A stretch of 58,483 bases of DNA, from the NCBI GenBank assembly GCA_018396725.1, contig JAGTRC010000010.1, positions 281-58,763 of the forward strand. Direction: 5' to 3'. The notes beneath the pieces were generated by a model. It did no database searches. It saw only the letters and a program-made list of their open reading frames with translations, and had not been told where the DNA came from. The DNA is from Candidatus Bathyarchaeota archaeon (GTDB lineage Archaea; Thermoproteota; Bathyarchaeia; 40CM-2-53-6; DTGE01). Below, piece by piece: positions 19,193-40,596 of this stretch; the stretch's first letter is position 1; each line of letters begins with the position of its first letter. Both the position numbers and the translations under genes were made by a program.

Positions 19193-20062
19193 GTGAGTGG
19201 TATGGATCCGAGAGGAGTGATTGATCGATTAGTCGAGCTGCAGATGGAGCGGGAGAGGATTAGGGAGAGGATGCAGCTGGTTAAACATAAATTGGCAGTT
19301 ATGAGCGGTAAGGGCGGTGTTGGTAAGAGCGTCATCGCGGCTAATCTGGCGGTGGCGTTATCCCTCCGCGGATGGGACGTGGGGATACTAGATGCGGATA
19401 TCCATGGGCCGTCCATACCTAAAATCTTGGGTGTGAGGGGGATGAAGCTACAAGCCGGTCCCCCCGGAATATTCCCCATGGAGGGGCCTTCAGGTGTCAA
19501 AGTAGCATCCATGGACCTGATACTTCCCAGGGATGAGACGCCCGTGATATGGAGGGGGCCCATGAAGATGTCCGCTATAAGGCAGTTCTTAGCGGATGTG
19601 GCGTGGGGGAGGCTCGACTACCTGGTCTTCGACCTGCCGCCTGGGACGGGAGATGAACCCCTGAGCGTTCTGCAACTCCTACCGGAGATGGACGGCGTAT
19701 TGATAGTGACGATACCCTCAGAGGTCTCACGAATAGTCATAAAGAAGGCCGTCTCCTTCGCGAGGGAGCTCAAAACACCAATACTGGGAATAATCGAGAA
19801 CATGAGCGGCTTCGTATGCCCCCACTGCGGGGCTGAAACCCCCATATTCAAGGTTGGGGGCGGGGAGGAGGTGTCCAGAGAGATGGGAGTGCCCTTCCTG
19901 GGCAGGATACCCTTGGATCCCAGGATATGCGAGGCCTCCGATGAAGGCATCCCATTCATCCTGGAGAACCCGAGGGCGAGGGCGGCTGAAGCCTTCATGA
20001 AAATAACCGCGAAGATAGAAGATGACATAAGGATGCGTAGGGCCAGCCAGGGGCGAGGTTAG
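19193..20062 (+). CDS. Mrp/NBP35-family ATP-binding iron-sulfur carrier
   Basis: 289 residues. It has a deviant Walker A typical of Mrp/MinD proteins (MSGKGGVGKS, residues 37-46), ILDADIHGPSIPKILG, DLPPGTGDEPLS, and a CPHC pair (Cys-x2-Cys) in GFVCPHCGAETP that bridges a 4Fe-4S cluster in a dimer. The family stores and passes clusters to apo-proteins. Start is GTG at 19193; an ATG three codons later is equally plausible. No DUF59 domain precedes the ATPase domain. It stands alone between a gene-poor stretch and a convergent acetyltransferase. Confidence 0.9.
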   Translation: MSGMDPRGVIDRLVELQMERERIRERMQLVKHKLAVMSGKGGVGKSVIAANLAVALSLRGWDVGILDADIHGPSIPKILGVRGMKLQAGPPGIFPMEGPSGVKVASMDLILPRDETPVIWRGPMKMSAIRQFLADVAWGRLDYLVFDLPPGTGDEPLSVLQLLPEMDGVLIVTIPSEVSRIVIKKAVSFARELKTPILGIIENMSGFVCPHCGAETPIFKVGGGEEVSREMGVPFLGRIPLDPRICEASDEGIPFILENPRARAAEAFMKITAKIEDDIRMRRASQGRG

Positions 20063-25006: not shown

Positions 25007-26503
25007 TTACGGGATCAGTTTTGAGAGCAGTGTTCCCAGCTGGCTCGTTATGGGGGTCGGGTAGATCCCTAGTATCGCTGAGAGCACCGTTAGAATTATT
25101 ATTGGGGCGAGCATCGTGGATGGGGCTTCGCCCGGCCTTAGTCCCTCCCTTTCCCGGCCGAAGAATATCCTCCTAACAGCTCTGAGGCCGTAGCCCGTCG
25201 TTAACACGGTGGCTGTGACTGCTAAGGCGGTTATCCAGGCCTTCCCCATGTCCAGGGATAGTAGCCCCGTCAGGCTGGAGTGCATGGATCCCGCGAATAT
25301 GAATATTTCGCTCCAGAATCCTAGGAGGGGGGGTGTCCCGGCCAGGCTCAGGAAGGATACCAGGGCTGCCGTGGCGGTGTAGGGCATCTTCCCGGCTAAT
25401 CCCCCTAGGTCGGATATGCGGCGGGTATCGTATTTATGCATGAATACGCCTGATACCATGAAGAGGACGGCTTTCGCGAAGCCGTGGCTCATGTATAGGA
25501 GGACGGCGCCTGCGACCCCTATTATGGAGGATGAGGCTACGCCGAGGAGGAGGTATCCCATCTGGCTTATGCTGGAGTAGGCGAGGAGCCTCTTGAGATC
25601 ATCCTGGGCTAGGGCTAGGAAGCCCCCGTAGAACATGGTGACCACAGCGAGGGTCGAGATGGCCGCTATGAACCTGTGATCCATTATTAGGGCCGGGAAC
25701 GCCGTGTATATTATCCTTATGGCGGCGTATCCCCCTATCCCGATCATGGCCGGGGATAGGAGGGCGCTTATAGGGGTTGGGGCTTCGGCGTGGGCGTCCG
25801 GGAGCCACGTGTGGAGGGGGAATATGGCCATCTTCACGAATAAGCCTAATAGTATGAGCGCGGCCACGGTGAAGGCTGTACGATCCGCGGCTGGGGCGGC
25901 CATCTTGATCTTGAAGATGTCGAAGGTCCCGTATGTGAACCTCGATATTAGGATGCCCGCCAGCAGGGATAGGGCCCCAGCCTCGGTGAACATGAAGTAT
26001 TTGAAGGCTATCCTCTCCTTGGGCCCCGTGCCCCATACGCCTATGAGGGCCCATGAGGGGAGGAGCATGAGCTCGAAGAACAGGAAGAAGGCCGCCAGGT
26101 TCGTTGAGAGCACGGAGCCGAGCATCCCCACCGTGTAGAGGAGGTAGAGGGCATAGTAGACTTCCAGGTGCTCAGCCTCCCCCATGTACTCCATGGAGTA
26201 CACGGCTATCAGGGCGGCTAAGATGGCCACCGTGAATGCTATGGGCGTGCTCAGGCTGTCGGCGAGGAGGGTGAGGTCCCCGATGTAGGGGGCCCACGGA
26301 TAAGATGCCTCCAATCCTCCCTGGATGAAGCCTAGCGGGGTCCCCAACCCTATATAGGCGTATATGGCTGCGCTGTATACTAGGGGGATGAAGGCTATCC
26401 ATCCGAGCCTCCTCCCATAGCCCCGGCCGAGGGAGAGGATTATAACGGAGAACACGGCTGGAGCCACCAGGGATTGGAGCAGTAAATGATTCGTGTCGAT
26501 CAC
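25007..26503 (-). CDS. Antiporter-like subunit of a complex I/Mrp-type complex (NuoM/NuoN family)
   Basis: 498 residues, about 14 membrane helices, of the proton-translocating NADH dehydrogenase/Mrp antiporter family. Seen motifs: FFELMLLPSWALIGVWG (Glu144), FVKMAIFPLHTWLPDAHAEAPTPISALL (Lys224), and YMSHGFAKAVLFMVSG (helix 12 lysine). The helix 8 lysine expected in the sequence after SALL is replaced: residues 246-259 read SALLSPAMIGIGGY, with Gly255 at the lysine place. It is the last gene of the operon, with GTG start 12 bases after the nuoL stop. Whether it matches NuoM or NuoN is not decidable by eye. Confidence 0.85.
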   Translation of the reverse strand: MIDTNHLLLQSLVAPAVFSVIILSLGRGYGRRLGWIAFIPLVYSAAIYAYIGLGTPLGFIQGGLEASYPWAPYIGDLTLLADSLSTPIAFTVAILAALIAVYSMEYMGEAEHLEVYYALYLLYTVGMLGSVLSTNLAAFFLFFELMLLPSWALIGVWGTGPKERIAFKYFMFTEAGALSLLAGILISRFTYGTFDIFKIKMAAPAADRTAFTVAALILLGLFVKMAIFPLHTWLPDAHAEAPTPISALLSPAMIGIGGYAAIRIIYTAFPALIMDHRFIAAISTLAVVTMFYGGFLALAQDDLKRLLAYSSISQMGYLLLGVASSSIIGVAGAVLLYMSHGFAKAVLFMVSGVFMHKYDTRRISDLGGLAGKMPYTATAALVSFLSLAGTPPLLGFWSEIFIFAGSMHSSLTGLLSLDMGKAWITALAVTATVLTTGYGLRAVRRIFFGREREGLRPGEAPSTMLAPIIILTVLSAILGIYPTPITSQLGTLLSKLIP

Positions 26504-26515
26504 GGCTCATCACCC

Positions 26516-28564
26516 TTATCCTAGGGAGGCCCTTAACAGGAGCAGTATTAGGAGGAGGAGCCCGGCTGCGAGGCCGACCATGTTATAGGGTAGGATGCCC
26601 GTATGGCTCCTCCTAAGCCATGAGGAGAAGCGTTGGACGGCCCCCGATAAGGCGTAGTTGAAGCGGTCGATGCCCCCCAATTCAAGGTAGGATAGGGCCC
26701 ACCTGCTGAAGCCTGTGAAGGAGCCTAGGAGGACCCTGTAGTAAAACCTGTTTATGTACCAGCGGCGGTGGAGGAAGCGCCACAGGGCCTTCAGGGCACC
26801 CCCCTCCCCGACCACCCTGGATGGATCCAGGCTCCTCCCTATGTAGAGGAGGTAGGCAGGTATGGATCCCACCACGAGCATCGCCGCCGAGATCCCGGGT
26901 ACGAGCCAGGCCGAGGCGTGGACTGGTATGGATCCGCCGGCGGCCCCAGCGGGGATTAAATGGGATAGGAAGTGCCTGAAACCCTCTTCAAGCCATGCCT
27001 TGAGGGTAGATCCCTGTAAGCCGAACACTATGGTTAATATGGTTAGGATGGTGAAGGGGATCCACATGACTCTGGGAGCCTCATGGACGTGGACCCCCCT
27101 CTCCCCCAACGCCTTCAGATGGCTGCTCTCCTCCCCTAGGAAGGCTAAGCCTATCATCCTCAGCGTGTAGAAGGCTGTGACCGCGACGGTTAGGGCGGCT
27201 ATAATGAATAGGTGTGTCTGGCCTGAGGTGAGGCTCGCCTCCAGGATCATGTCCTTGCTCCAGAAGCCGCTGAAGGCTAGGGGCACCCCCATGAGGGAGA
27301 AGCCGGCTAGGGTGGCGCTCCAGAAGGTTATGGGCATACCCCTCTTCAGGCCTCCCATGTGATGCATGAACCTTGAATGGGATGCGTGGATGACGGCCCC
27401 TGCGGCGAGGAAGAGCGCCGCCTTGAAGAGGGCGTGGCTCATGAGGTGGAAGACCCCGCCCGTGTACCCGATTATGTACTCGGCTGTGGTGCCTGCGACT
27501 CCCAGGCCGAGCATCATGTAGCCTATCTGGCTCACGGTGGAGTAGGCGAGCACCTTCTTTATCTCAGTGGAGGCCATGGCCTGGGTTCCAGCCACGAGGG
27601 CTGTGAGGGCCCCTATCCAGGCCGCCGCATAGAAGAAGTTTATTATCTGGTTGGGGGATCCCCCATGCCATGCGGCCGTGTATAGTATGGGGAATATCCT
27701 CCCCACGAGGTATACGCCAGCTTTGACCATCGTGGCGGCGTGGATGAGGGCGCTGACGGTCGTGGGGCCGGCCATGGCGTCTGGAAGCCACTCCATCAGG
27801 GGGAGCTGGGCCGACTTGCCTATGGGGCCTCCCAGCAGGAGGATCGCCGCGGGGGCGAGGAGCCACACCGGGACCCTTAGGATGGCCCCCTCCTGGAGCT
27901 CCAGGTAGTTCAGGGTCCCCGCGTAGGCTAGGATTATGAATAACCCTATGAGCATGGCCACGTCCCCTATACGGGTCGTTATGAAGGCCTTCATGCCGCA
28001 GTGGCTGGGGGGATAGGCTTCCCTCCCCTCGCCCACCCAGCATCTAAGCCAGTCCTCCATGGAGTCCCTGTACCAGAAGCCGATGAGGGCGTAGCTGCAC
28101 AGGCCCACCCCCTCCCAGCCGAAGAGGAGCTGGATGAAGTTATCGGAGAGGACGAGGAGGAGCATATCCCCTATGAAGAGGTTCATGAAGAACCAGTATC
28201 TAGTGAGGCTCGGATCATCCTTCATGTAGCCGAGGGAGTAGATCATTATGAGGGCCCCTATCACGGCCACCACGTTCGCCAATATGACGCTCAGCGGGTC
28301 CACTAGTACGCCGGCCTTCAACGACCCTAGTATCGGCGAGCCTGGGAGCAGGATCCATTCCACCTGGCTCTGGATCATACGCCCCTCCAAGAGGTATGGG
28401 ATCATGGAGAGGGTTAGGGCTGCAGCCGCCAGGGAGAAGGCTACCGCCGCGTAATCCCTAACCCTCTTATCTATCTTGGCGAGTACCGGGGTTAGGCCCG
28501 CCCCGACCATGGGGATTATCCAGCAGAGCCAGGCAGGCCAGACCCACTCCATCGCATAGGCCAT
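26516..28564 (-). CDS. nuoL: Complex I membrane subunit NuoL
   Basis: 682 residues. NuoL features: LLFGWEGVGLCSYALIGFWYRD, IGKSAQLPLMEWLPDAMAGPTTVSALIHAATMVKAGVYLVGR (both channel lysines), HLMSHALFKAALFLAAG and PLAFSGFWSKDMIL. After helix 14 the protein continues about 180 residues with further hydrophobic segments and a basic stretch, consistent with the lateral helix that braces the membrane arm. It lies 4 bases after the preceding antiporter-like gene. All expected ion-path residues appear intact, unlike its two paralogues here. Confidence 0.9.
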   Translation of the reverse strand: MAYAMEWVWPAWLCWIIPMVGAGLTPVLAKIDKRVRDYAAVAFSLAAAALTLSMIPYLLEGRMIQSQVEWILLPGSPILGSLKAGVLVDPLSVILANVVAVIGALIMIYSLGYMKDDPSLTRYWFFMNLFIGDMLLLVLSDNFIQLLFGWEGVGLCSYALIGFWYRDSMEDWLRCWVGEGREAYPPSHCGMKAFITTRIGDVAMLIGLFIILAYAGTLNYLELQEGAILRVPVWLLAPAAILLLGGPIGKSAQLPLMEWLPDAMAGPTTVSALIHAATMVKAGVYLVGRIFPILYTAAWHGGSPNQIINFFYAAAWIGALTALVAGTQAMASTEIKKVLAYSTVSQIGYMMLGLGVAGTTAEYIIGYTGGVFHLMSHALFKAALFLAAGAVIHASHSRFMHHMGGLKRGMPITFWSATLAGFSLMGVPLAFSGFWSKDMILEASLTSGQTHLFIIAALTVAVTAFYTLRMIGLAFLGEESSHLKALGERGVHVHEAPRVMWIPFTILTILTIVFGLQGSTLKAWLEEGFRHFLSHLIPAGAAGGSIPVHASAWLVPGISAAMLVVGSIPAYLLYIGRSLDPSRVVGEGGALKALWRFLHRRWYINRFYYRVLLGSFTGFSRWALSYLELGGIDRFNYALSGAVQRFSSWLRRSHTGILPYNMVGLAAGLLLLILLLLRASLG

Positions 28565-28568
28565 TACC

Positions 28569-30140
28569 CTACCATCCCCCCATCAACGCCTTACTCACGT
28601 ATTCCATAAGGGTTATCATGCCGCCCGGGGCTAAGCCTACGAGGAGGGATACGGCCGCCAGGATTATTACCGGGATGACCATGGCCCCGGGCGCCTCCAC
28701 GGCTTCGGCGGCCAACCCAGAGGGCTTCCTTAGCATGATCCGCTGCATAAGCCATAGGTAATAGGCTGCTGAGAGTACGCTGTTGAATATCAGGATGGCA
28801 GTTATAGTGTACAGGGCTGTGTCGCCGGCTATGCTCAGGCCCGCCAGGATTATGAACAGCTTGCTCCAGAAGCCGCTCAGGGGTGGAACCCCGGCCAGGG
28901 AGAAGAGGCCTAAAGTGAAGGATGTACCCGTCAGGAACATCCTACGCCCAACACCTTCCAGCTGGGATATGTCCCGGGTGCCCGTTTCGTGGACGAAGCA
29001 TCCGGAGCAGAGGAAGAGGAAGCCCTTGCCCACGGCGTGGTTGAATATGTGGAATAGGGCTCCCGAGGCCCCTAGGAGGGCGACCTTCAAGGCGAGGCCT
29101 GGATCCACAGGATAATAATGGGATAGGGCGTAGGCCGCGATCCCGAGCCCCGCGGTTATGTAGCCTATGTTGGCTATGCTGGAGTAGGCGAGGAGCCGTT
29201 TTATATCCCTCTGGAGGAGGGCTACAAAGTTGGCGACCGTCATGGTTAAAGCCGCGAAGATGAGGATCGCGGTGCCGTAGTCGAAGGCCACAGGGTTAAA
29301 TAATGTGAACAGGCTCCTGCCCAGGCCGTAGACCCCCGTCTTTATTACGACCCCTGAAAGCATGGCGCTTATAGGGCTGGGGGCTGCGGGGTGGGCGTCC
29401 GGGAGCCACGTGTGGAACGGGACCATGGAGGCGGTGACCCCGAAGCCCACTATTATGAGGGCGACGAGGATGTAGAGGGGTGAGGGGACACCCGCCTCGG
29501 CTATGGAGTCCAACCCCACGCGGATGAGCCTGAAGTTAACGGTTCCCGTTAAACCGTATAAGAGGGATATCCCGTAGAGGATGGTGAGGGAGCCTAGGCT
29601 GCTCATCATGAGATACTTGAAGCCCGCCTCTATAGGCTCCCAACGGTACTTCCTGAAGGATACCAGGGCGTAGGAGGAGATGCACATGAGCTCCCAGGAG
29701 ACGAAGAGGTTAAAGAAATCCCCTGCGAAGGCCACCCCGACCATCCCAGCTACCAGGGTGAGGAGCAGGAGATAATAGTATTCATGGCCTGTATCCCCCT
29801 CCATGTATCTGACCGAGTATATGGATGCGAGGAGACCTATGCCGCAGAATATCATGGCCATGTAGACGCTGAGCATGTCCACGTGGAGCTCCACCCCGCC
29901 ATTCACGGGTAGATATGGGTCTAAGGCCACTGAGACCGGCCCCGAATAGTATACTCGAAGGTAGAGCCTATACAGGGTGTAAAGGGTTACTGTGAAGCCC
30001 AGCACCGCGAACACGTCCACGGCCTTACCCCCGCCGGGCCTAGCCCTCCTAGCCGCCGAGGCCACTATGGGGGTGAGCATCGCGGCTCCTAGGAGCGTAG
30101 CCAAAGGGGTTAGGACCATCCAGGCCTGGTCGTTCACCAT
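28569..30140 (-). CDS. Antiporter-like subunit, MrpD/MbhH-like (NuoM/NuoN family)
   Basis: 523 residues with about 14 helices. Glu150 lies in LFVSWELMCISSYALVSF; the helix 7-8 region reads GFGVTASMVPFHTWLPDAHPAAPSPISAMLSGVVIKTGVYGLGR, with the helix 8 lysine (Lys267) present but Thr236 where helix 7 lysine is expected. The helix 12 lysine (FNHAVGKGFLFLCSG) is present. PSPISAMLSGVVIK is closer to MrpD or MbhH than to NuoM. The gene directly follows nuoK (7-base overlap), the MrpC-MrpD order. A Mrp-like ion path is an inference. Confidence 0.82.
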   Translation of the reverse strand: MVNDQAWMVLTPLATLLGAAMLTPIVASAARRARPGGGKAVDVFAVLGFTVTLYTLYRLYLRVYYSGPVSVALDPYLPVNGGVELHVDMLSVYMAMIFCGIGLLASIYSVRYMEGDTGHEYYYLLLLTLVAGMVGVAFAGDFFNLFVSWELMCISSYALVSFRKYRWEPIEAGFKYLMMSSLGSLTILYGISLLYGLTGTVNFRLIRVGLDSIAEAGVPSPLYILVALIIVGFGVTASMVPFHTWLPDAHPAAPSPISAMLSGVVIKTGVYGLGRSLFTLFNPVAFDYGTAILIFAALTMTVANFVALLQRDIKRLLAYSSIANIGYITAGLGIAAYALSHYYPVDPGLALKVALLGASGALFHIFNHAVGKGFLFLCSGCFVHETGTRDISQLEGVGRRMFLTGTSFTLGLFSLAGVPPLSGFWSKLFIILAGLSIAGDTALYTITAILIFNSVLSAAYYLWLMQRIMLRKPSGLAAEAVEAPGAMVIPVIILAAVSLLVGLAPGGMITLMEYVSKALMGGW

Positions 30141-30439
30141 CTCAGCCTCCTCAGCCTCCTCAAATCTATCGAGCCGTAATGCCTGTACGCGTATATCACC
30201 AGGGATAGGGCTAAGGCGGCTACGGCCGCCCCTATGACTATGGAGGTGAAGGCCATGGACTGGGCTAACGGGTCCACCGTGCCCCCGCTGGATCCCATGG
30301 CGAGTATGTTGAGGTTGACCGCCGAGGTTATAACCTCCAAGCCTATAACGGCCCTGAGCATGTTCCTGCTCGTGAGTAGGGCGTATAATCCTATGAGGAC
30401 CAGGACCATGGAGGCCGCGAAGTAGGCTGTGGACGCCAT
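30134..30439 (-). CDS. nuoK: NuoK/MrpC-like small membrane subunit
   Basis: 101 residues, three helices. The family glutamate lies in AVIGLEVITSAVNLNILAMG, and the third helix carries AFTSIVIGAAVAALALSLVIYAYRHYG. The basic tail SIDLRRLRRLRW overlaps the next gene by 7 bases. The same fold is NuoK in complex I and MrpC in antiporters; neighbours of both kinds are present. Confidence 0.88.
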   Translation of the reverse strand: MASTAYFAASMVLVLIGLYALLTSRNMLRAVIGLEVITSAVNLNILAMGSSGGTVDPLAQSMAFTSIVIGAAVAALALSLVIYAYRHYGSIDLRRLRRLRW

Positions 30440-30441
30440 GT

Positions 30442-30726
30442 CTAATCGGCCTCCTCCACGACAGCCTCCTCCCTCGGAGGCTTCTCAGGCTCCCTCCGGA
30501 AGAAGGCCGCCACAGCCGCCGCGGCGGCGAGTATCAGGAAGGCTTGGAAGAGAACGTCGAAGCCCCTGTAAGTCCAGTAGAAGGCCTCCACCGGCAGGAA
30601 CATGCTCACAGGCATGACCTGGAGGGTTAAACCCGTGAACTTGGAGACGAAACCTAGCAGGAGGACGGCTAGGATCAGGATGATGAAGGCGCCCAGAGCC
30701 CTCTCAACGGTGCCAGCCTCGCTCAT
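30442..30726 (-). CDS. Small membrane subunit, NuoJ C-terminal or MbhE/MrpA-tail-like
   Basis: 94 residues, two helices and an acidic tail. The second helix reads YWTYRGFDVLFQAFLILAAAAAVAAFFRRE. The RGFDxLFQ(A)xxxxLAAxxxxAxLFR pattern is what I recall from MbhE and the C-terminal region of MrpA rather than from NuoJ. The ATG overlaps the upstream nuoJ-like stop (ATGA). With the 82-residue gene before it, it makes a split equivalent of a longer NuoJ or MbhD-E unit. Confidence 0.65.
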   Translation of the reverse strand: MSEAGTVERALGAFIILILAVLLLGFVSKFTGLTLQVMPVSMFLPVEAFYWTYRGFDVLFQAFLILAAAAAVAAFFRREPEKPPREEAVVEEAD

Positions 30727-30971
30727 TCAGCCTCACCCCCACCCAGGGTGTGGAGGGCCGCTAGGAATAGGACTGTGACAGCCCCCGCGTACACCAGGAG
30801 CTGGAAGACGGCCACGTAAGGCGCGCCTACAAGGTAGAAGGAGGCGGAGAGGGCCACGCTGAAGGCTGCGAAGGCGGCTATAGCCCTGTTCAGCTCCCTA
30901 AGGCATACGGACAATCCCGCAAAAACCACGGCTAGGAGGATTAAGAGGATGTTGATCAAGGTTTCAAACAT
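30723..30971 (-). CDS. nuoJ: NuoJ-like small membrane subunit
   Basis: 82 residues, three helices. The third reads YVAVFQLLVYAGAVTVLFLAALHTLGG, the NuoJ VYxGAVxVLFL signature of the membrane hinge helix. It is about half the length of bacterial NuoJ (about 180), with the rest perhaps supplied by the next, overlapping gene. The ATG lies about 100 bases after nuoH; the intervening sequence is AT-rich with no gene. Confidence 0.8.
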   Translation of the reverse strand: MFETLINILLILLAVVFAGLSVCLRELNRAIAAFAAFSVALSASFYLVGAPYVAVFQLLVYAGAVTVLFLAALHTLGGGEAE

Positions 30972-31070
30972 TCAACCACACCTCGCATCCCGATCAGACC
31001 ATCCACCTTGGTCTTTCCAATTTAATTTCATCCGAATCCTAATTATCTATTTAAGATTTGTTTCTTCTTT

Positions 31071-32042
31071 TCATATTAGTATTCTGACTAGAAAGAGTTG
31101 AAGTAGGGATATTGGTACCAGGTACTTCCATGCGAAGGCCACCATCTGGTCTATCCTGAACCTCGCGAAGAGGGCCCTGATGGTTGAGAGGATCAGGAGG
31201 ACTATGATGGTCTTCGCCAGGAAGTAGACGGGTCTTAGGATCGATTCCAGGCCCGGCGGGGCGGGTCCCAGGGGCCCTCCCAGGTATAGGGCTGCGGCTA
31301 ATCCTGAGACGTATAGGAGCTCCAGGTCAGCCGAAAGCCGGATCAGGGCGAGCTTTCTCCCGGAGAACTCTGTGAGCCAGCCTGCGACTATCTCGGTCTC
31401 GGCCTCGGGTATGTCGAAGGGTATCCTCTCCAGCTCGGCTTGGGCGGCTATCAGGAATATGGCGAAGCCCAGGGCTTGGGGGCCCAGGATGAGCCATCCC
31501 CTCTCGGCTTGGGCCTCGACTATGCTGGAGATCCTGAGGCTCCCCGCAGCCAGGGCGACCCCCACCACGGCGAGGGTCATGGGTATCTCGTAGCCTAGGA
31601 GCTGGCTTACAGCCCTCTCCGCGCCCACGCTGGAGAACCTGTCCACCGAGAAGGACCCCGAGAGATACACGATTATGCAGTATATCGTCATCAGGGCCAC
31701 GGCTAGTATTAGGTCTCCCTCGAAGGAGACGAGGCCTGAATAAGCGGTTACGGGTAGGAGCGTCACGGCTGTGAGCATGACCGCGGCGGCTAGGGCTGGC
31801 ATGGAGCTGAAGAAAGGTTTATCCGCGGCCTTCGGCGTTATATCCTCCTTGGATAGGAGCTTTATGAAGTCCGCTAAGGGTTGGAGTATCCCCGAGGGAC
31901 CCGTGTATAATGGCCCGACGCGGTTCTGGAGTTTAGCGTAGAATTTACGATCTATCCATTCGAGGGCCAACGCCAGGAGTATCGCGAATATGAAGCCGGG
32001 GAAGACCATGATCTTCACGAGGGCTAAGACCGACTCAAACAT
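31071..32042 (-). CDS. nuoH: Complex I membrane subunit NuoH
   Basis: About 323 residues and eight helices. Core signatures: QNRVGPLYTGPSGILQPLADFIKLLSKEDITP near the N-terminus and AQAELERIPFDIPEAETEIVAGWLTEFSG in the middle, the charged loop that lines the quinone cavity beside NuoB and NuoD. An in-frame TTG at 32072 could extend the protein by ten acidic residues, but the ATG at 32042 has a strong GGGGAGGAGGGAG upstream. No NuoB or NuoD gene lies in the cluster, although this subunit normally contacts both. Confidence 0.92.
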   Translation of the reverse strand: MFESVLALVKIMVFPGFIFAILLALALEWIDRKFYAKLQNRVGPLYTGPSGILQPLADFIKLLSKEDITPKAADKPFFSSMPALAAAVMLTAVTLLPVTAYSGLVSFEGDLILAVALMTIYCIIVYLSGSFSVDRFSSVGAERAVSQLLGYEIPMTLAVVGVALAAGSLRISSIVEAQAERGWLILGPQALGFAIFLIAAQAELERIPFDIPEAETEIVAGWLTEFSGRKLALIRLSADLELLYVSGLAAALYLGGPLGPAPPGLESILRPVYFLAKTIIVLLILSTIRALFARFRIDQMVAFAWKYLVPISLLQLFLVRILI

Positions 32043-32086
32043 CCCCGGTTCTCCCTCCTCCCCTTCCTCCAATCCACTCCTAAGGT

Positions 32087-32548
32087 TTAACCCTCCCTTG
32101 GACCCCTCCCGGGCTTGTAGTCCTTCCTTAACGGGTAGACGCCCTCCGGCCAGTCGTCGGGTAGTAGGACCCTCTTAAGGTTTGGGTGGCCCTCGAACCT
32201 CACCCCTAGGAGGTCGTAGACCTCCCTCTCGTAGAAGGCGGCTCCTGGGAGGATGTCGGTTATCGACTCTATCCTGGGGTCTTCCCTGGGTAAGGCCGTG
32301 GTCACGGTTAGCTCCACGCCTCTGCCGAAGAGGTGGGTTAGTATCTCTATCTCCTTGCCCGTGTCGACGCCGGTTATGGTGGAGATGTGGATTATCCCCT
32401 TATCCTCCACCAGCCTCCTGACCGCCTCCTTGTAGTCCTCTGCTTTAACCCTTATGAAGAGGCGCCTGGGCCTGGAAGGGTTCGCCTCCAGGCATTTACC
32501 GCCCAGGAGGATCTTAACCTCCTCCGCGAGCCTCTTCTCAGGGCTTAT
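32087..32548 (-). CDS. nuoC: Complex I hydrophilic subunit NuoC (probable ATA start)
   Basis: A 153-codon frame. It contains TGVDTGKEIEILTHLFGRG, AAFYEREVYDLLGVRFEGHP and LPDDWPEGVYPLRKDYKPG, the conserved NuoC core that packs against NuoD. The frame has no ATG, GTG or TTG before codon 47 (GTG at 32410), yet coding-like sequence (RRLFIRVKAEDYKEAVRRL) extends upstream. It reads back to the overlap with the nuoA stop, where ATA at 32546-32548 follows GGAGGGGGGAG. I place the start there. A start at 32410 would lose the first third of the domain. An ATT nine codons earlier is an alternative. Confidence 0.78.
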   Translation of the reverse strand: MSPEKRLAEEVKILLGGKCLEANPSRPRRLFIRVKAEDYKEAVRRLVEDKGIIHISTITGVDTGKEIEILTHLFGRGVELTVTTALPREDPRIESITDILPGAAFYEREVYDLLGVRFEGHPNLKRVLLPDDWPEGVYPLRKDYKPGRGPREG

Positions 32549-32898
32549 ATCTTCCGTAGCTCCCCCCTCCTGAATATCAGGATGGCCGCCATCGCGGCCA
32601 CCGCTATGTAGACGGTGGCTAGGGTTGAGGTTAGGGTGTTGCCTTTAAATGGGACACCCATTGATAGGGCGAATATCACTGCGACGACGTCGAGGATCAG
32701 GAACATGGCCGCATAATTGTAGAGGTATACGCCTAGACGAGCCCTCTCCGGGGGCATGTCCTCGCCGCAGGCGTAGGGCATGAGCTTGTCCTCGCTCGGC
32801 TTGGGTTTAGGGGATATTCTGCCGCCTACGCCGTAGATCACGGCTGCAACTATGACCGCTAATATGAAGACTATTATAGGCGATGATTCAGCGGCCAA
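32545..32898 (-). CDS. nuoA: Complex I membrane subunit NuoA
   Basis: 117 residues with three helices. The conserved loop before helix 2 reads KLMPYACGEDMPPERARLGVYLYNYAAMFLILDVVAVIFALSMG; the YxCG...LDVEx-type pattern marks NuoA. The TTG start follows GGGGCGGGAG, and a TATA-like AATATTTAAAAATAAAT lies about 50 bases upstream. First gene of the operon. Its final codons overlap the proposed nuoC start. Confidence 0.9.
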   Translation of the reverse strand: MAAESSPIIVFILAVIVAAVIYGVGGRISPKPKPSEDKLMPYACGEDMPPERARLGVYLYNYAAMFLILDVVAVIFALSMGVPFKGNTLTSTLATVYIAVAAMAAILIFRRGELRKI

Positions 32899-33137
32899 GT
32901 CTCCCGCCCCACATATTATGCATATTTTATGGATAGGATTTATTTTTAAATATTAGCATTGGAAGCCCTTCGATCGTCCAGGAGGCCCGTGCCCGCCGCG
33001 GTACGAGGTCCCTTCCACTGGGTTGGGGTCCATCGGCGGCCCCGGGGATCCGTAAATTTTAAAGAGGAATAAGCGGAATACATTAATTATGTAATGCGGT
33101 GCATACTTAAGTTTTAATTTAGGGGGAGAGGTCGGCC
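32899..33137. promoter_or_regulatory. Divergent promoter region for nuoA operon and atpIK
   Basis: On the minus strand AATATTTAAAAATAAATCC (about 32938-32957) suits the nuo transcript; on the plus strand the AT-rich CATACTTAAGTTTTAATTT (about 33102-33120) lies just ahead of the GGGGGAGAGG ribosome-binding site of atpI. Between them is a GC-rich block (32970-33050) where CCGCCG and CGGCGG can pair. I saw no gene in it. Confidence 0.5.
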
Positions 33138-35072
33138 ATGATAATCCCTGTGAAGAAGGTCACGGTCTTAACCCTCGCAGATTATGAGAGGCCCCTCCTC
33201 GAGGAGCTGGGCAGACTGGGCGCCGTTCAGCTTAGGAGGCTCAGGGAGGATGAGTACATAGGGTTTAGGGAGGAGACGGCTGAGGAGGAGAGGGCCTACG
33301 ACCAACTATACGAGAGGCTGAAGATGCTTCACGGGAAGTTCTCGAGGGGAGAGGCCCCATCCAAGGAGGTTTACGGGACGATCCCGCCTGAGAGGGTCGA
33401 GGAGGAGGTTAAGGCATTCGAGGATAGGGCCGCTGGCTTGGAGGGGGAGATCCGGGAGGCTAAGGAGAGGACGAAGGAGCTGGAGGATGTTAGGCCCATA
33501 TTAAAGGCGATGGAGGAGCTCGGGGTGAACCCCGGGGACGTGGGGGAGTTCATACATATATTCGGGAAGATCGGTAAGGTGAAGGCTGAGACCCTTCAAG
33601 CCCTGGAGCACAGGTTTAAGGGGAGGAGGGACATCCTATATAGGGCGGCTCCCATCCCCGGCTCGGAGGGCGAGCACCTCCTCTACGTGACCGGGCTTAT
33701 GGAGCTGAAGGCTCCCGTGGAGAAGGCCCTCTCAACGGCTGGCTTCGAGGAGTTCAAGCTCCCCAGGGGGATCCCGTCCAGCCTGGATGAAGCTGCCAGA
33801 TGGGTCGAGGAGGAGGTGGAGAGGGAGAGGAAGAGGCTTGGGGGGCTCGAGGAGGAGTGGGCGAGCCTCAGGGAGGGTTTCCAATCCAAATATAAGGTTT
33901 TAGAGGATACCCTGAGGAGGCTTCTAGCCCTCGCGAGGGCGAGGACTAACATGCTTAGGAGCGAGATGATGGTGGTGCTCCAGGGATGGGTTCCTGAGGA
34001 TAAGATCCCGAGCCTCGACTCCTTCTTCGACGACGCCAAGAGGAGGATGGGCGGTAGACTAGCCTACTCATACGAGGATCCGGCGCCGGGAGAGGAGGTT
34101 CCCACGGTTATGAGGAACCCGAGGCTCTTCAGCGCATACGAGCTCCTAACCAGGCAGTACGGCTACCCGGACCCCAGGGAGAGCGATCCAACCCCGATCT
34201 CCACGATCCTATGGATAACCATGTTCGGCATGATGTTCCCGGACTACGGCCAGGGATTGGCCATACTCCTCCTCGGGGCATTCTTCGCCTACAGGCTCAG
34301 GAAGCCCTTAATGGGGATGAACATGGCCAGGATAGGCCGGCTCATGATGGGCTTAGGCGTCTCAGCCATCGTATTCGGCCTCCTCACAGGCTCATTCTTC
34401 CTCATAGAGGTTACGCCGTTATGGCCTGGATTGATGCCGGCCTGGATAACCTATCCAAGCAACGTCATATGGATAATAAAGGTAGCGGTCTTCTTCGGGA
34501 TAGCCCAGATAGTCCTAGGCCTCTCCATGAGCATTAGGAACCATCTGAGGGCGGGGGAGAGGCTGGAGGCCCTCCTAAGCGAGCACGGCCTCGCAGGCCT
34601 GGTCGCCTTCCTTGGGATAGCCATAGTGGCCTTCGAGTTCCTAGGCGTGGGCGTGCTCCCATGGGTGAGGTTTCCGAGGCTCGGCATGGGCGTCCTAACC
34701 CATTGGACCATGGCCTTACCAGTGGCGGGGCTGATAGCCATATTTATACATCCGGTCCTCTCCGGTGAGGGCGCTACCATGGGGATAGGGGTGGTCCTTG
34801 AGGCCTTCATCTCGTTCCTGGCGAACATGCTCTCCTACGCGAGGATAGCCGGCTTCGCCATAGCCCACGCAGCCTTCGCCCTGGTCGTGGGGGAGCTCCT
34901 CCACGCTAACCCCGCCTTGGGGATAGGGTTGGGCCTAATGTTCCTGAACGTCTTCGCCCTAACCCTGGAGCTTCTCGTATGTATGATACAAGCCCTACGC
35001 CTGCTATACTACGAGTTCTCCACGAAGTTCTTCAAGGGCACGGGCGTACCCTACATCCCCTACAGGCTTTAA
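33138..35072 (+). CDS. atpI: A-type ATP synthase subunit I (a-subunit)
   Basis: 644 residues. The first about 330 are hydrophilic and coiled-coil-rich (YERLKMLHGKF, EEVERERKRLGGLEEEWASL), forming the peripheral-stalk connection. The second half has about seven to eight membrane helices: MFPDYGQGLAILLLG, ANMLSYARIAGFAIAHAAFALV and RLLYYEFSTKFFKGTGVPY. Arg in the LSYARI(A) segment is the family's ion-path arginine. It starts with ATG behind GGGGGAGAGG and is followed 63 bases later by the proteolipid gene. Confidence 0.92.
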   Translation: MIIPVKKVTVLTLADYERPLLEELGRLGAVQLRRLREDEYIGFREETAEEERAYDQLYERLKMLHGKFSRGEAPSKEVYGTIPPERVEEEVKAFEDRAAGLEGEIREAKERTKELEDVRPILKAMEELGVNPGDVGEFIHIFGKIGKVKAETLQALEHRFKGRRDILYRAAPIPGSEGEHLLYVTGLMELKAPVEKALSTAGFEEFKLPRGIPSSLDEAARWVEEEVERERKRLGGLEEEWASLREGFQSKYKVLEDTLRRLLALARARTNMLRSEMMVVLQGWVPEDKIPSLDSFFDDAKRRMGGRLAYSYEDPAPGEEVPTVMRNPRLFSAYELLTRQYGYPDPRESDPTPISTILWITMFGMMFPDYGQGLAILLLGAFFAYRLRKPLMGMNMARIGRLMMGLGVSAIVFGLLTGSFFLIEVTPLWPGLMPAWITYPSNVIWIIKVAVFFGIAQIVLGLSMSIRNHLRAGERLEALLSEHGLAGLVAFLGIAIVAFEFLGVGVLPWVRFPRLGMGVLTHWTMALPVAGLIAIFIHPVLSGEGATMGIGVVLEAFISFLANMLSYARIAGFAIAHAAFALVVGELLHANPALGIGLGLMFLNVFALTLELLVCMIQALRLLYYEFSTKFFKGTGVPYIPYRL

Positions 35073-35129
35073 AAAGGGGCGTTTAAGGATAAACTTTAAA
35101 AAGAAAAGATGATTAAATAAATGCTCTGA

Positions 35130-35435
<306 letters not shown>

Positions 35436-35517
35436 CCCGCATCAAAGAGAGGAGCGAATAGAGTTACGTGGGGTCGAGCGCAAAGCCGTTTAAGCCGGGC
35501 GGCCTGGGATTCAAACC

Positions 35518-35760
35518 TTGAACAGGAGCGAAGTCCATCGGAGAGTAAACATTAGGATGATGATCCTCTACTTCTCATCCCTGATAACCCTTCAAATCAT
35601 GGGCGTACTATACTTCCTCAGATATCCATCGGCCCTCTCAGGCCTGATCATAGGAGTCCTCGCGGGAGCCTTAGCCCCCGTACTATTGGCGGCTCTCCTA
35701 GTCAAGCTGGTTAAGATCGTTTATAGGGATGAGCTTTCACAGGACAGCAACGCCGAATGA
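35518..35760 (+). CDS. Small two-helix membrane protein after atpK
   Basis: 80 residues from a TTG start, with two hydrophobic helices (ILYFSSLITLQIMGVLYFL and LIIGVLAGALAPVLLAALLVKLV), a basic N-terminus and a polar tail. I do not recognise the family. It lies on the same strand 82 bases after the proteolipid gene and could be an assembly or accessory factor for the c-ring, comparable in position to UncI of bacteria, though no homology is claimed. Confidence 0.5.
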   Translation: MNRSEVHRRVNIRMMILYFSSLITLQIMGVLYFLRYPSALSGLIIGVLAGALAPVLLAALLVKLVKIVYRDELSQDSNAE

Positions 35761-35796
35761 GGATCGCACTCCCCTCCACGGCGGCCGTAAAGGCCT

Positions 35797-36801
35797 CTAG
35801 ACGGATAGGTATCCTCCCGGGCTTACGCCATGCTCCACCGCTACGGCTATGAAGGATAGGTCCCTGCATTCCAGCTCGCATAGGATTAGATATCCTAGCG
35901 TGTAGGGTAGTTCTATAGGCGAGCCACGCATCGCATGCTCGGCTTCCTCCCTTAGGATTTTGAGCCCCTCCGCCTCGGCCAGGTCGTCCCTCCCGGCTAG
36001 GATTTGCTCCACCACCCTGTTGTACGGGGTTAAAGCATCCAACGCCGCCTGGGAGCTCTTGGCCCTCACCGCCTCCACCAGCTTTGAGCCTGAAACTCTA
36101 TGGTGATACGGGATGAGCAGCTGCACCGTCAAGTCCTCGGAGTACCCGTATACTAGGGGGGCGAGGGATGCAGAGACGTTTGCTAGGTCGACCTCCAACC
36201 CTATCAGGGGGAGGATCGCCTCCCTTGACTCCGAGGGCAGCCTCTCAGCATGGTCCAGCACACCCATGTAATACATGCGTTTCAGGGCATACTCCATGGG
36301 TAGGATGCTCCCATACGCGCTGCAAGGCTCCACGTAGCCTCCGAGCCCTTCGTAGAATGTGCCTTTGAGGAGCCCCACAGCCCTCTCCAGGCTCTCAGCC
36401 TCCAGGAGGGCATCCCAGTTCAGCCTGGATAGACCGCTCAACGGCGTGAGCCACGCTCCAATCTCCCCGGGGGAGGCGGCCGAGTATTTACCCCTCAGGA
36501 GCCTTGAGAGGTTCCTCACCTCTAATCTCCGTGCATAAGCCTCCATGAACCCCTCCAGGTTCTCGGGGGCCAGCTTTACCAGGTACCTGAACCTCTCAGC
36601 TAATACCTGGTTGAACGCCTCCTCCAAGGCCTGGGCGTCCACCTTCTCGAGCCCTACTATTCTATGGCCATAGTCCGTGGGTGTGAGGATGCTCGTAAGG
36701 TCTTGGAGGCCCTTGGCTGAGGCTAAGGCCCCCAAGACGTCCCGGGGGAGTAGATGGGTTACGAGTCCATGACACCTCACCGCGATGTAGGTCTCATCCA
36801 A
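35797..36801 (-). CDS. atpC: A-type ATP synthase subunit C
   Basis: 334 residues, mostly helical, of the V-type subunit C/d family that forms the collar between the central stalk and the c-ring. Features: MDETYIAVRCHGLVTHLL N-terminus, RLEVRNLSRLLRGKY (the conserved Leu/Ile-Glu-...-N-L-R segment) and ILCELECRDLSFIAVAVEHGV at the C-terminus. TTG start, three bases after atpD. Last gene of the minus-strand operon and convergent with the small plus-strand gene. Confidence 0.9.
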   Translation of the reverse strand: MDETYIAVRCHGLVTHLLPRDVLGALASAKGLQDLTSILTPTDYGHRIVGLEKVDAQALEEAFNQVLAERFRYLVKLAPENLEGFMEAYARRLEVRNLSRLLRGKYSAASPGEIGAWLTPLSGLSRLNWDALLEAESLERAVGLLKGTFYEGLGGYVEPCSAYGSILPMEYALKRMYYMGVLDHAERLPSESREAILPLIGLEVDLANVSASLAPLVYGYSEDLTVQLLIPYHHRVSGSKLVEAVRAKSSQAALDALTPYNRVVEQILAGRDDLAEAEGLKILREEAEHAMRGSPIELPYTLGYLILCELECRDLSFIAVAVEHGVSPGGYLSV

Positions 36802-36803
36802 GG

Positions 36804-37427
36804 CTACGGCCTCCTCCTGGAGAGCAGGGCCTTCACGAACTTAGTCCTCGTGAACTCCTCCAACATGGCCTCTTCGAGCATGTCCTCTATGTACTTGATC
36901 ATCCTTTTATATCCGGGTATGACTATCTTCTCCAGGGCGTTTACTTGACGGTTCGTCTTCTCCAGGTCCTCGGCCACCCTCTCTATGCGGGCTTCAAGCT
37001 CCGCTACGCTCACCAGGTCGTTCAGGATGCCGTGGATCTTCCGGGCTGCGGCCCTCACCACAGGTTTGAACTTATCCCTCACCTCGGGCATGTGGAGTAT
37101 CTTGACGTATGGGACCTGGATCCCCATTACGCTCCTGGGGAGGACCTCCAGCTCCAACCCTCCCCCAGGGTTGATCCACGAGGAGGCCTCCATGGATCCC
37201 AGAGACGCGTACATCCAGGCGACGGCGTCTAGGGCTTCCTCGACCTTCTCCTCGAAGCCTATCCTCCTCGAGGCTAGCTCTTCCAGGTCGGATCTAAGCT
37301 CCTTGGCGAGCTCATCCCTCTTCATCTCGAGGAGCTTGTAGCCCTCCTCGATGAAGCCCACCCTCCTTTTAAGTTGGAGGAGGAAGCCCCTCGTAGGCTT
37401 GGCCTTCGCCCCGATCACGGCGGCCAT
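36804..37427 (-). CDS. atpD: A-type ATP synthase subunit D (central stalk)
   Basis: 207 residues. Long N- and C-terminal helices suit the coiled-coil rotor: KPTRGFLLQLKRRVGFIEEGYKLLEMKRDEL at the start and ERVAEDLEKTNRQVNALEKIVIPGYKRMIKYIEDMLEEAMLEEFTRTKFVK near the end, the family's RRVNALE-type signature. The ATG directly follows the atpB stop. Confidence 0.93.
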   Translation of the reverse strand: MAAVIGAKAKPTRGFLLQLKRRVGFIEEGYKLLEMKRDELAKELRSDLEELASRRIGFEEKVEEALDAVAWMYASLGSMEASSWINPGGGLELEVLPRSVMGIQVPYVKILHMPEVRDKFKPVVRAAARKIHGILNDLVSVAELEARIERVAEDLEKTNRQVNALEKIVIPGYKRMIKYIEDMLEEAMLEEFTRTKFVKALLSRRRP

Positions 37428-38855
37428 CTAACTCTCCCCTGCGGGTTCCGGGGATCCCCGAGTTCCACCTCCTCTACGGCCTGGATGATACTTCGCTATG
37501 TACTCCTCCTTCACCCGGATGAGCTCATCCTCTGGGAGCATGGAGAGGAGGTCCCATGCTATCTCCAGGGTTCTCTCCAGGGATCTGTTCTCGTAGACAC
37601 CTTGATTGACGAACCTCCTCTCGAACTCCTCAGCGAACTTAAGGTATTTACGCTCCCTCTCGCTCAAGCCCACTTCGCCTATTATCCTTACGAGGCCCCT
37701 CGCCTTGACGCCCTCAGCGTATGACATGTAGAGCTGGTTGGATACGTCCGGGTGGTCCTCCCTCGTCCTCCCCGGGCCGACCCCATCCTTCATGAGCCTC
37801 GAGAGAGACGGTAACACGTTTATAGGTGGGTAGATCCCCCTCAGGTAGAGGTCCCTGTCAAGGATGAGCTGCCCCTCGGTTATGTAGCCGCTCAGGTCAG
37901 GTATGGGATGGGTTATATCCCCCCCTGGCATTGTGAGGATGGGCATCAGGGTTACGGATCCCTTCTTACCCTTTATCTTCCCAGCCCTTTCATATATGGT
38001 GGCTAGGTCCGTGTAGAGGTATCCTGGATAGCCCCTCCTGGCGGGGACCTCCTCCCTGGCCGCGGATATCTCCCTGAGGGCTTCGCCGTAGTTGGTCATA
38101 TCGGTCAGGATGGTTAGGACGTGCATGTCCATGTCGAAGGCGAGGTATTCGGCCACGGTCTGGGCCACCCTCGGGGCTATTATCCTCTCTATTATGGGGT
38201 CGTCGGCCAAGTTCAATATGACCACGGCTCCGGCTAGGGCGCCTGTCCTCTCAAACTCTGTGCGGAAGAACTCGTACTCCTCATGTTTTACGCCCATGGC
38301 GCAGAAGACCACGGCGAACTCCTCCTCCCTACCTGGGACGGTGGCCTGCCTGGCCACCTGAGCCGCCACTATGTTGTGGGGTAGGCCGGCCTCTGAGAAG
38401 AATGGGAGCTTCTGACCCCTCACGAGGGAGTTCATCCCATCTATGGCGGATATGCCGGTCTGGATGAACTCGCTGGGGGGCTCCCTAGCTGCAGGGTTTA
38501 TTATGGAGCCGAATATCTCCCTATGCTCCTCCCCCATGGGCTCGGGCAAGCCGTCCAGGGGTTTGAAGCTTCCGCTGAAGACCCTGCCGATGAGGTCGTC
38601 CGATAAGGGTATCTTGATCACCTCGCCCGTGAACCTCACGGATACGCCCAGCTCCAGGCCCTCTGTGGAGCCGAACACCTGGACGACCGCCCTATCGGTG
38701 AAGGTGTCCAGGACGCTCCCGATCATCTCCGTTCCATCGGGGAGCCTCACCTCGACGAGCTCGTTGTAGGCGGCGCCCCTCACTCCCTCCACCACGAGTA
38801 TGGGGCCCCGGATCTCCCTCGTCGTCCTACATAATAGGCCTGCCTTCTCAACCAT
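37428..38855 (-). CDS. atpB: A-type ATP synthase subunit B (regulatory, non-catalytic)
   Basis: 475 residues, close to the usual 460. Features: N-terminal beta-barrel ([25 protein letters not shown]), [49 protein letters not shown] in place of a P-loop, and [42 protein letters not shown]. The missing P-loop is normal for B subunits, which bind nucleotide weakly and shape the three catalytic sites. ATG start 20 bases after atpA. Confidence 0.95.
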
Positions 38856-38874
38856 CGCCCGCCATCCTCCCTTT

Positions 38875-40596
38875 TTAGAAGGCTAAGCCGTATTGTTCGG
38901 CCAGCCTCCTTATGTCGCCTTCAACCATGCTCCTCACCTTATCTATCCATTCGAGGCCCTTCCTCTCCTTCAGGCGCATGACCTCCACCAGGGAGGGCAT
39001 CTCCCTTATCTTGTCCACGGGCACCCTCCCCCTGACGAGGGGCTCGACCATGTCGTAGAACTCCACCATGAACCTGAGCATGGCCGCCTGCTTCTCAGGC
39101 TCGCAGTACGTGTCCACCTCGTGATATGCGTGTTGGACGAGGAAGCCCTCCCTCACTATCTCGGAGAAGAGGAGGACTAGGCGTTGCTCGTCTGGGAGGG
39201 CCTTCTCCCCCACTATCCTGGCGGTCTCCTCTATCTTCGAGGCCTCCTCCAATAGGCTTAGGGCCCTCTCCCGGAAATACGACCATTCCGGATCGTATTT
39301 GGACCAGTATTCGCTGAGGAGGTCCGTGTACCTGCTGAAGCTCATAAGCCAGTTTATGGCTGGGAAGTGCCTCCTGAAGGCGAGCTCCGTGTCCAGGGCC
39401 CATAGGGTTCCAACGAACCTCAGGGTTATCGAGGTTACGGGCTCGCTGAAGTCCCCGCCGGGCGGGGAGACCGCCCCCATTATCGTCACGGATCCTATCC
39501 TCTGGCCGCTTCCAAGGGTGATCACCCTGCCGCTCCGCTCATAGAATTCAGCTATCCTCTCGGCCAGGTATGCGGGGTATCCCCCCTCGGCGGGTATCTC
39601 CTCGAGCCTCCCGGAGATGTCCCTTAGGGCCTCGGCCCACCTCGAGGTGGAGTCGGCCATCACCGCCACGTCGTAGCCTTGATCCCGATAGTATTCGGCT
39701 ATGGTTATGCCCATGTATATGCTGGCCTCCCTAGCGGATACGGGGAGGTTGCTCACGTTCGCTATGAAGAGGGACCTTTCTATCAGGGTCTTTCCGGTCC
39801 TGGGGTCCTCGAGCCTCGGGAAATGGGTTATCACATCGGCCATCTCGTTCCCCCTCTCGCCGCATCCCACATAGATGATTATATCCGCATCGGACCATTT
39901 GGCCAGTTGATGCAGGGTCACGGTCTTCCCGGTTCCGAACCCGCCTGGGATGGCGGCGGCGCCCCCCTTAGCCACCGGGAAGAACGAGTCTATCACACGT
40001 TGCCCGGTTATGAGGGGCTCCACCGATGGAAGTCTAACCTTGTAGGGCCTGGGAACCCTTACAGGCCACCTCTGCATCAGGGTTACAGGCCTCTCCTCCC
40101 CATCCGGCGTCCTAATGACCGCCACAGTATCCTCCACTGTGTATTCCCCCTCCCTTATCTCGGATATGGTTCCCCTCAACCCTACGGGGGTGATTATCCT
40201 GTGCTCCACAGCCGAGGTTTCAGGTACAACCCCTAGAATGTCGCCTTCAACCACTTCATCGCCCTCTTTAACCTTCGGGGTGAAGGGCCACCTCCTCCTC
40301 CTGTCCAGGGGGGGTATCCTGACCCCCCTGCCCATGAAGGGGCCTGTCAGCTCCCATAGAGCGGTCTCCGAGAACTCTAATCCGTCGAGTATCGTCCCTA
40401 TGAGGCCTGGGCCCAGCTCGGCCACGAGGGGTAGCCCCGTTGAGGCCACGGGCTCCCCGGGCCTCAGGCCGCTGGTGTCCTCGTAGCATTGGATGGCCAC
40501 ATCCCTCCCCGTGATCCTCACGACCTCCCCTATTAGCTTAAGCTCCCCCACGTGGACTACGTCGCCTATCTTGATCATGGGGAGGCCCTCGGCCAC
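38875..40596 (-). CDS. atpA: A-type ATP synthase subunit A (catalytic)
   Basis: 573 residues, near the usual 580-590. It contains a catalytic P-loop, [18 protein letters not shown], the [15 protein letters not shown] segment with the catalytic glutamate region, and the A-type bulge insert after the N-terminal barrel. The P-loop normally reads GPFGSGKT in archaeal A subunits; here Pro is Gly and Ser is Thr. GTG start at 40596; ATG at 40578 (MIKIGDVV) is an alternative. No intein is present. Confidence 0.95.

Follow-up and report, generated by a model that had tools for sequence, protein, structure and literature searches.

What kind of enzyme is specified by an operon that resembles that of complex I and has no genes for subunits B, D and I? 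The 58,483-nucleotide stretch of Candidatus Bathyarchaeota DNA analysed here (the window) carries on its minus strand, from 32898 to 25007, an operon of the complex I/hydrogenase superfamily with the gene order A-C-H-J1-J2-K-N-L-M. The initial annotation had noted subunits A, C, H, K and L, two J-like and two antiporter-like subunits, and had proposed that B, D and I are either encoded elsewhere or replaced by another electron donor module in a novel hybrid complex. We find that B, D and I are not missing from the genome; their absence is limited to the window. What the operon helps to specify is very probably an ion-pumping hydrogenase of a known kind whose genes are split, rather than a new complex devoid of its core.

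The membrane-arm operon

The annotated composition of the operon was borne out by Pfam, TIGR models and an orthologue profile (Table 1). A Pfam search of the operon confirmed the families of A, C, H, J1 and K and placed three further proteins in Proton_antipo_M; the NuoJ family scored slightly below its cut-off with J1. J2 had no match in the Pfam search, and a profile built from five orthologues matched subunit E of the membrane-bound hydrogenase MBH (6cfw_E, E 7e-4). In searches against the PDB, the best match of L was the NuoL of complex I, M was about equally close to complex I and MBH, and H matched chloroplast NDH at 184 bits, the Escherichia coli subunit at 149 and MBH at 94. Genes A, C and H abut with no B, D or I gene between them, just as had been annotated. 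The operon likewise has no NADH (NuoEFG) or F420H2 (FpoF) input module within it, an FrhB/FpoF-like gene lying beside B-D-I, and no MbhABCF genes, for which the rest of the genome was covered by the PF00361 search only.

Table 1. Features of the membrane-arm operon and its surroundings (positions in the window)
Feature	Position	Strand	Basis
A subunit (NuoA/FpoA-like)	32545..32898	-	PF00507, 35.8 bits, above cut-off
C subunit (NuoC-like)	32087..32550	-	PF00329, 107.8 bits; open frame and alignment with relatives
H subunit (NuoH/ND1-like)	31071..32072	-	PF00146, 297 bits; the genome's only PF00146 protein
J1 subunit (MbhD / N-terminal half of NuoJ)	30723..30971	-	PF13244 MbhD
J2 subunit (MbhE-like / C-terminal half of NuoJ)	30442..30726	-	Orthologue profile and position
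K subunit (NuoK-like)	30134..30439	-	PF00420, 90 bits
N-type antiporter subunit, MbhH/MrpD-like	28569..30140	-	Best PDB match MbhH, 270 bits
L subunit (NuoL-like), C-terminal extension	26516..28564	-	TIGR01974, 492.6 bits, above cut-off
M subunit (NuoM-like)	25007..26503	-	TIGR01972, 300.5 bits, above cut-off
Putative TATA-like box atatttaaaaata upstream of A	32941..32953	-	Reading of the sequence
V/A-type ATP synthase genes adjoining the operon	33138..40596	I, K +; C, D, B, A -	ORF list; named from sequence

The start of the C gene required a closer reading. A product of 107 amino acids was rejected: no stop interrupts the frame upstream as far as about 32560, and the N-terminus encoded there aligns with the C subunits of relatives. 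The first ATG, GTG or TTG, at 32410, is thus internal, and there is none in the frame upstream of it. Most likely, translation would begin at a non-canonical ATA at 32550, which aligns with the GTG start of the orthologue in a relative (G010) and is preceded by ggaggggg (window 32545-32560). Elsewhere in the window, an Mrp/Nbp35-like P-loop ATPase was recognised by eye at 19193-20062.

The B-D-I cluster and its catalytic subunit

Searches of the window's own genome (G000; 1.75 Mb, 98.9% complete) with PF01058 and PF00346 recovered a contiguous B-D-I cluster at C6:47454-49509. The first option offered by the initial annotation, that these subunits are encoded elsewhere, therefore stands; the kind of hybrid to which the complex very probably belongs, Hfo, has already been described (PMC7886697). 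The genome has one PF00346 gene, adjoined on C6 by the NuoB and NuoI genes, and the family searches found no other B, D or I homologues of this type in it. It also has one NuoH-type gene (PF00146), and its antiporter-type genes (PF00361) are the three in the window only. With one set of each half present, the window operon and the C6 cluster look like halves of one complex. A second PF01058 match, at C4:51561, was rejected as B because it encodes the small subunit in a HydBGDA cluster of group 3b type; this (sulf)hydrogenase cluster occupies L006 7644-11576.

The D subunit retains the four Ni-binding cysteines in its L1 (RICGICNVAH) and L2 (DPCMCCMDR) motifs, although L2 deviates at one non-ligand position, with a Cys where the published motif has A, G, S or T. 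Full-length alignments ranked MbhL (277 bits) above HycE of formate hydrogenlyase (255) and Nqo4 of complex I (228). In an alignment of D with Nqo4 and MbhL, the motif cysteines are replaced in Nqo4. Conversely, the Nqo4 stretch GPQHPSTHG, which carries the quinone-site histidine, reads GPQHPALKE in D; both this “STH” and the Tyr of the Nqo4 quinone site are replaced. D extends about 32 residues beyond L2, and B has a hydrogenase-type GGCNAC. Judged by these motifs, D is the catalytic subunit of a group 4 [NiFe]-hydrogenase without the quinone ligands of complex I.

The genome also encodes maturation functions, with hypD and a HycI-family protease gene adjacent on C1; the protease scored 78.6 bits with TIGR00142, below the equivalog cut-off, and exceeded the cut-off of the TIGR00072 superfamily model. 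G000 thus combines a HycI-type endopeptidase with a C-terminal extension of D, as is characteristic of group 4, whereas the pairing characteristic of complex I and Fpo, a D that lacks Ni ligands and has the quinone His and Tyr, is not what we see. A candidate HypE at L005:15827-16987 was rejected because it lacks the HypE C-terminus, and the true HypE is in L098.

These observations bear on the idea that the two loci encode a split-operon respiratory complex I or Fpo-like dehydrogenase that reduces quinone or methanophenazine. H and L are indeed nearer to complex I than to MBH, NuoA is present, and the NCBIfam NuoD and FpoD models match D, albeit below their cut-offs. Nevertheless, with all four Ni cysteines kept and the quinone ligands gone, D does not belong to complex I, and the presence of HypD and a HycI-family protease also argues against this idea, which we consider improbable. 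All 11 subunits shared with Fpo and Nuo are encoded, A, C, H, J1, J2, K, N, L and M in the window and B, D and I on C6, and by this make-up and the motifs of D the predicted complex matches Hfo, the Fpo-like [NiFe] hydrogenase of group 4g. Hfo is expected to be encoded by a single Fpo-like cluster and here there are two loci, a difference that concerns gene order and not protein make-up.

The split and the FrhB-like neighbour among relatives

In a class-wide sample of 137 genomes with 75 D loci, D is adjacent to H at 64. The remaining 11 loci are those of the three split genomes, G133 and G134, G003, and G004 and G009, together with two at contig ends and one whose H was sub-threshold. Besides the window's genome, the split occurs in G001, of the same family, and G010, of another family in the same order. 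Both share the B-D-I locus, FrhB included, and keep the order A-C-H-J1-J2-K-N-L away from it; in G010 the halves lie about 300 kb apart on one 623-kb contig. G005 has the membrane arm, no B-D-I was found in its assembly, and the region around B-D-I of G010 has no clear counterpart there, which could reflect either loss or an assembly gap. Of the in-frame stops noted in the D genes of some relatives, that of G042 was rejected as a selenocysteine or pyrrolysine codon, being the natural gene end.

The recurrence of the split speaks to whether it is an artefact, with C6 derived from another organism or the operon misassembled. The genome is a draft of 32 contigs with an estimated contamination of 4%. 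However, the same arrangement recurs in two other genomes, in one of which a single contig carries both halves, and the halves in G000 lie inside contigs, away from the ends. Tetranucleotide usage correlates at r = 0.97 between the window and the C6 stretch, whereas none of the loci compared from relatives exceeds 0.74; contamination is thus unlikely. An artefact is therefore exceedingly improbable and in effect already refuted.

Trees of D and of H, for which closely related unsplit sequences from this class served as reference, both group the split genomes together (support 100/99 and 100/100) with no well-supported conflict. The D and H distances correlate at r 0.86, a value that mostly reflects species kinship. 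The initial annotation had held that a nuoBDI cluster elsewhere with a matching phylogeny would mark a normal, merely split complex I; the cluster and the congruence are there, but the complex is not a normal complex I if D is a hydrogenase subunit, as its motifs indicate.

The membrane-arm operon of the relatives carries further clues. In G010 and G005 it is flanked by hypE and hycI-hypF, which ties it to hydrogenase maturation. A lone nuoM sits between the ATP synthase K and I genes in both (L123 8510-10015 in G010, L124 1554-3074 in G005), flanked by the same V/A-type ATP synthase genes that neighbour the operon in the window. This gene apparently stayed behind when the remaining operon moved, and its position suggests that the ancestral operon adjoined the ATP synthase genes, as it does in the window. 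Throughout the split clade (the four genomes G000, G001, G005 and G010), the N subunit has threonine in place of its TM7 lysine; MbhH and the N subunits of five unsplit relatives retain the lysine. We suspect from this replacement that one of the three pump-like subunits, N, may work differently in the clade.

Other lineages depart from the D-H arrangement in their own ways. In G133 and G134, of a different family, B-C-D-I-FrhB lies beside hypE/hypF/hycI, and a separate contig carries A, H, J1, J2, K, N and L; here the genes seem to have come apart a second time, independently and at a comparable joint. B-C-D-I precedes a more distant membrane arm in G004 and G009. The B-C-D-I of G003 (L100 2822-13657) lies beside genes for a 2-oxoacid:ferredoxin oxidoreductase, with NuoE-, NuoF- and NuoG-like genes on the other strand. 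No cognate H was found for it, and the contig end may cut off its membrane arm; it may be a hydrogenase that is soluble or coupled in another way, so heads of this kind might also function with no membrane arm.

The FrhB/FpoF-like gene lies tail-to-tail with B-D-I on C6, and likewise in G001 and G010. It is the sole FrhB gene of the window's genome, and its product has an FpoF-like layout, a ferredoxin domain joined to the FrhB core. The genome also encodes cofE, which is located at L006 1005-1769, a few kb upstream of the group 3b-type cluster. FrhB genes number 0-2 per genome (21 in the 17 genomes examined), yet they occur at 13 of the 37 Hfo loci fetched, against about 0.4 expected from gene density. 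The FrhB-bearing loci span eight families, so shared descent alone is not the cause. Pfam confirmed the FrhB domains in all nine proteins tested, four of which are fused to CBS domains (L139 10350-11909, L145 5778-7316, L110 3974-5521 and L153 17545-18999); three of these four fusions directly follow I.

The proximity of FrhB could also mean that there are two enzymes, B-D-I and FrhB forming a soluble, Frh-like F420-reacting [NiFe] hydrogenase and the window encoding a pump with some other electron module. Such a reading would account for the position of the only FrhB gene next to B-D-I in three genomes and would find a parallel in the B-C-D-I of G003. It fits poorly with the single H and D of this type in each split-group genome and their congruent trees, with the C gene, whose product docks on D in known complexes, being part of the membrane operon, and with the maturation genes flanking the arm in G010 and G005. 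Moreover, the PF01058 and PF00346 searches of G000 found no other module able to cap the arm. We thus regard two enzymes as unlikely.

Proposed mechanism and comparison with known systems

We are confident, if short of certain, that the window encodes the membrane arm and C subunit of an energy-converting [NiFe] hydrogenase, Hfo (4g), that B, D and I come from C6, and that a split operon thereby specifies one complex. According to this interpretation, the small subunit B, the Ni-containing D and the two-cluster ferredoxin subunit I from C6 would assemble with the products of the window. Electrons, likely from reduced ferredoxin, would enter via I and B and pass to the Ni-Fe site of D, where protons would be reduced to H2 or, in reverse, H2 oxidised. 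Energy would pass via H to the J/K/N/M/L chain, which would move H+ or Na+ across the membrane, and the gradient would serve the V/A-type ATP synthase whose genes adjoin the operon. The FrhB/FpoF-like flavoprotein may add F420/F420H2 as a partner. A further possibility, offered tentatively, is that Hfo of Bathyarchaeia, a class held to lack FpoFO (PMC8407382), uses an FpoF-like FrhB, sometimes CBS-fused, as its electron-input module to pass electrons between H2 and F420/F420H2, whether or not ferredoxin takes part, and that the head and FrhB form a detachable soluble unit whose genes parted from the membrane arm more than once.

What looks like an “incomplete complex I” in an archaeal draft genome can turn out to be a hydrogenase with its catalytic head encoded at a distance, and annotation that goes operon by operon is then wrong on function as well as on completeness. 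The repeated separation of head and pump and the association of the head with an F420 flavoprotein fit the view of complex I as modular in origin. That association also points to an electron partner that can be tested in the 4g hydrogenases, a group still uncharacterised.

The membrane-arm plan (A-H-J-K-L-M-N) and subunit C are shared with respiratory complex I and Fpo, from which the complex differs in the [NiFe] hydrogenase nature of D, its missing quinone ligands and the lack of an NADH module among the operon genes. Four subunits recall the Pyrococcus furiosus MBH (group 4d), D being similar to MbhL, J1 to MbhD, J2 to MbhE and N to MbhH, whereas the window has subunits of the NuoA, NuoL and NuoM types, its H is like that of complex I, and the MbhABCF Na+/H+ module was not found in its operon. 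Rearranged “fpo-like” operons with apparent subunit loss were reported from hot-spring Bathyarchaeia, the class to which the window's genome belongs, and were treated as Fpo-like; B, D, H and L were always present and fpoFO was stated to be lacking (PMC8407382). In the genome studied here, a separate locus holds B, D and I, and FrhB is next to them. The closest counterpart is Hfo itself, described from Bathyarchaeia as an Fpo-like, 11-subunit [NiFe] hydrogenase of group 4g, a group of which, according to the same paper, no member had been characterised biochemically (PMC7886697; Loh, Herve and Brune 2021). Subunits and Ni-site motifs agree, neither operon has NuoEFG or FpoO, and the window's genome falls in the same order as G017 (QZM_A2_bin_35), a metagenome-assembled genome deposited as Bathyarchaeota. 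The differences are the division of the genes into A-C-H-J1-J2-K-N-L-M and B-D-I, with M at yet another locus, the third, in G010 and G005, the FrhB/FpoF-like gene beside B-D-I and the N subunit without its TM7 lysine. In a different lineage, f__YL-1 of the Syntropharchaeia, a group 4g hydrogenase is likewise encoded beside an F420 hydrogenase beta subunit (FrhB), and coupling of H2 and F420 was suggested (PMC12533140); the present analysis counts this association over a class and includes FrhB-CBS fusions.
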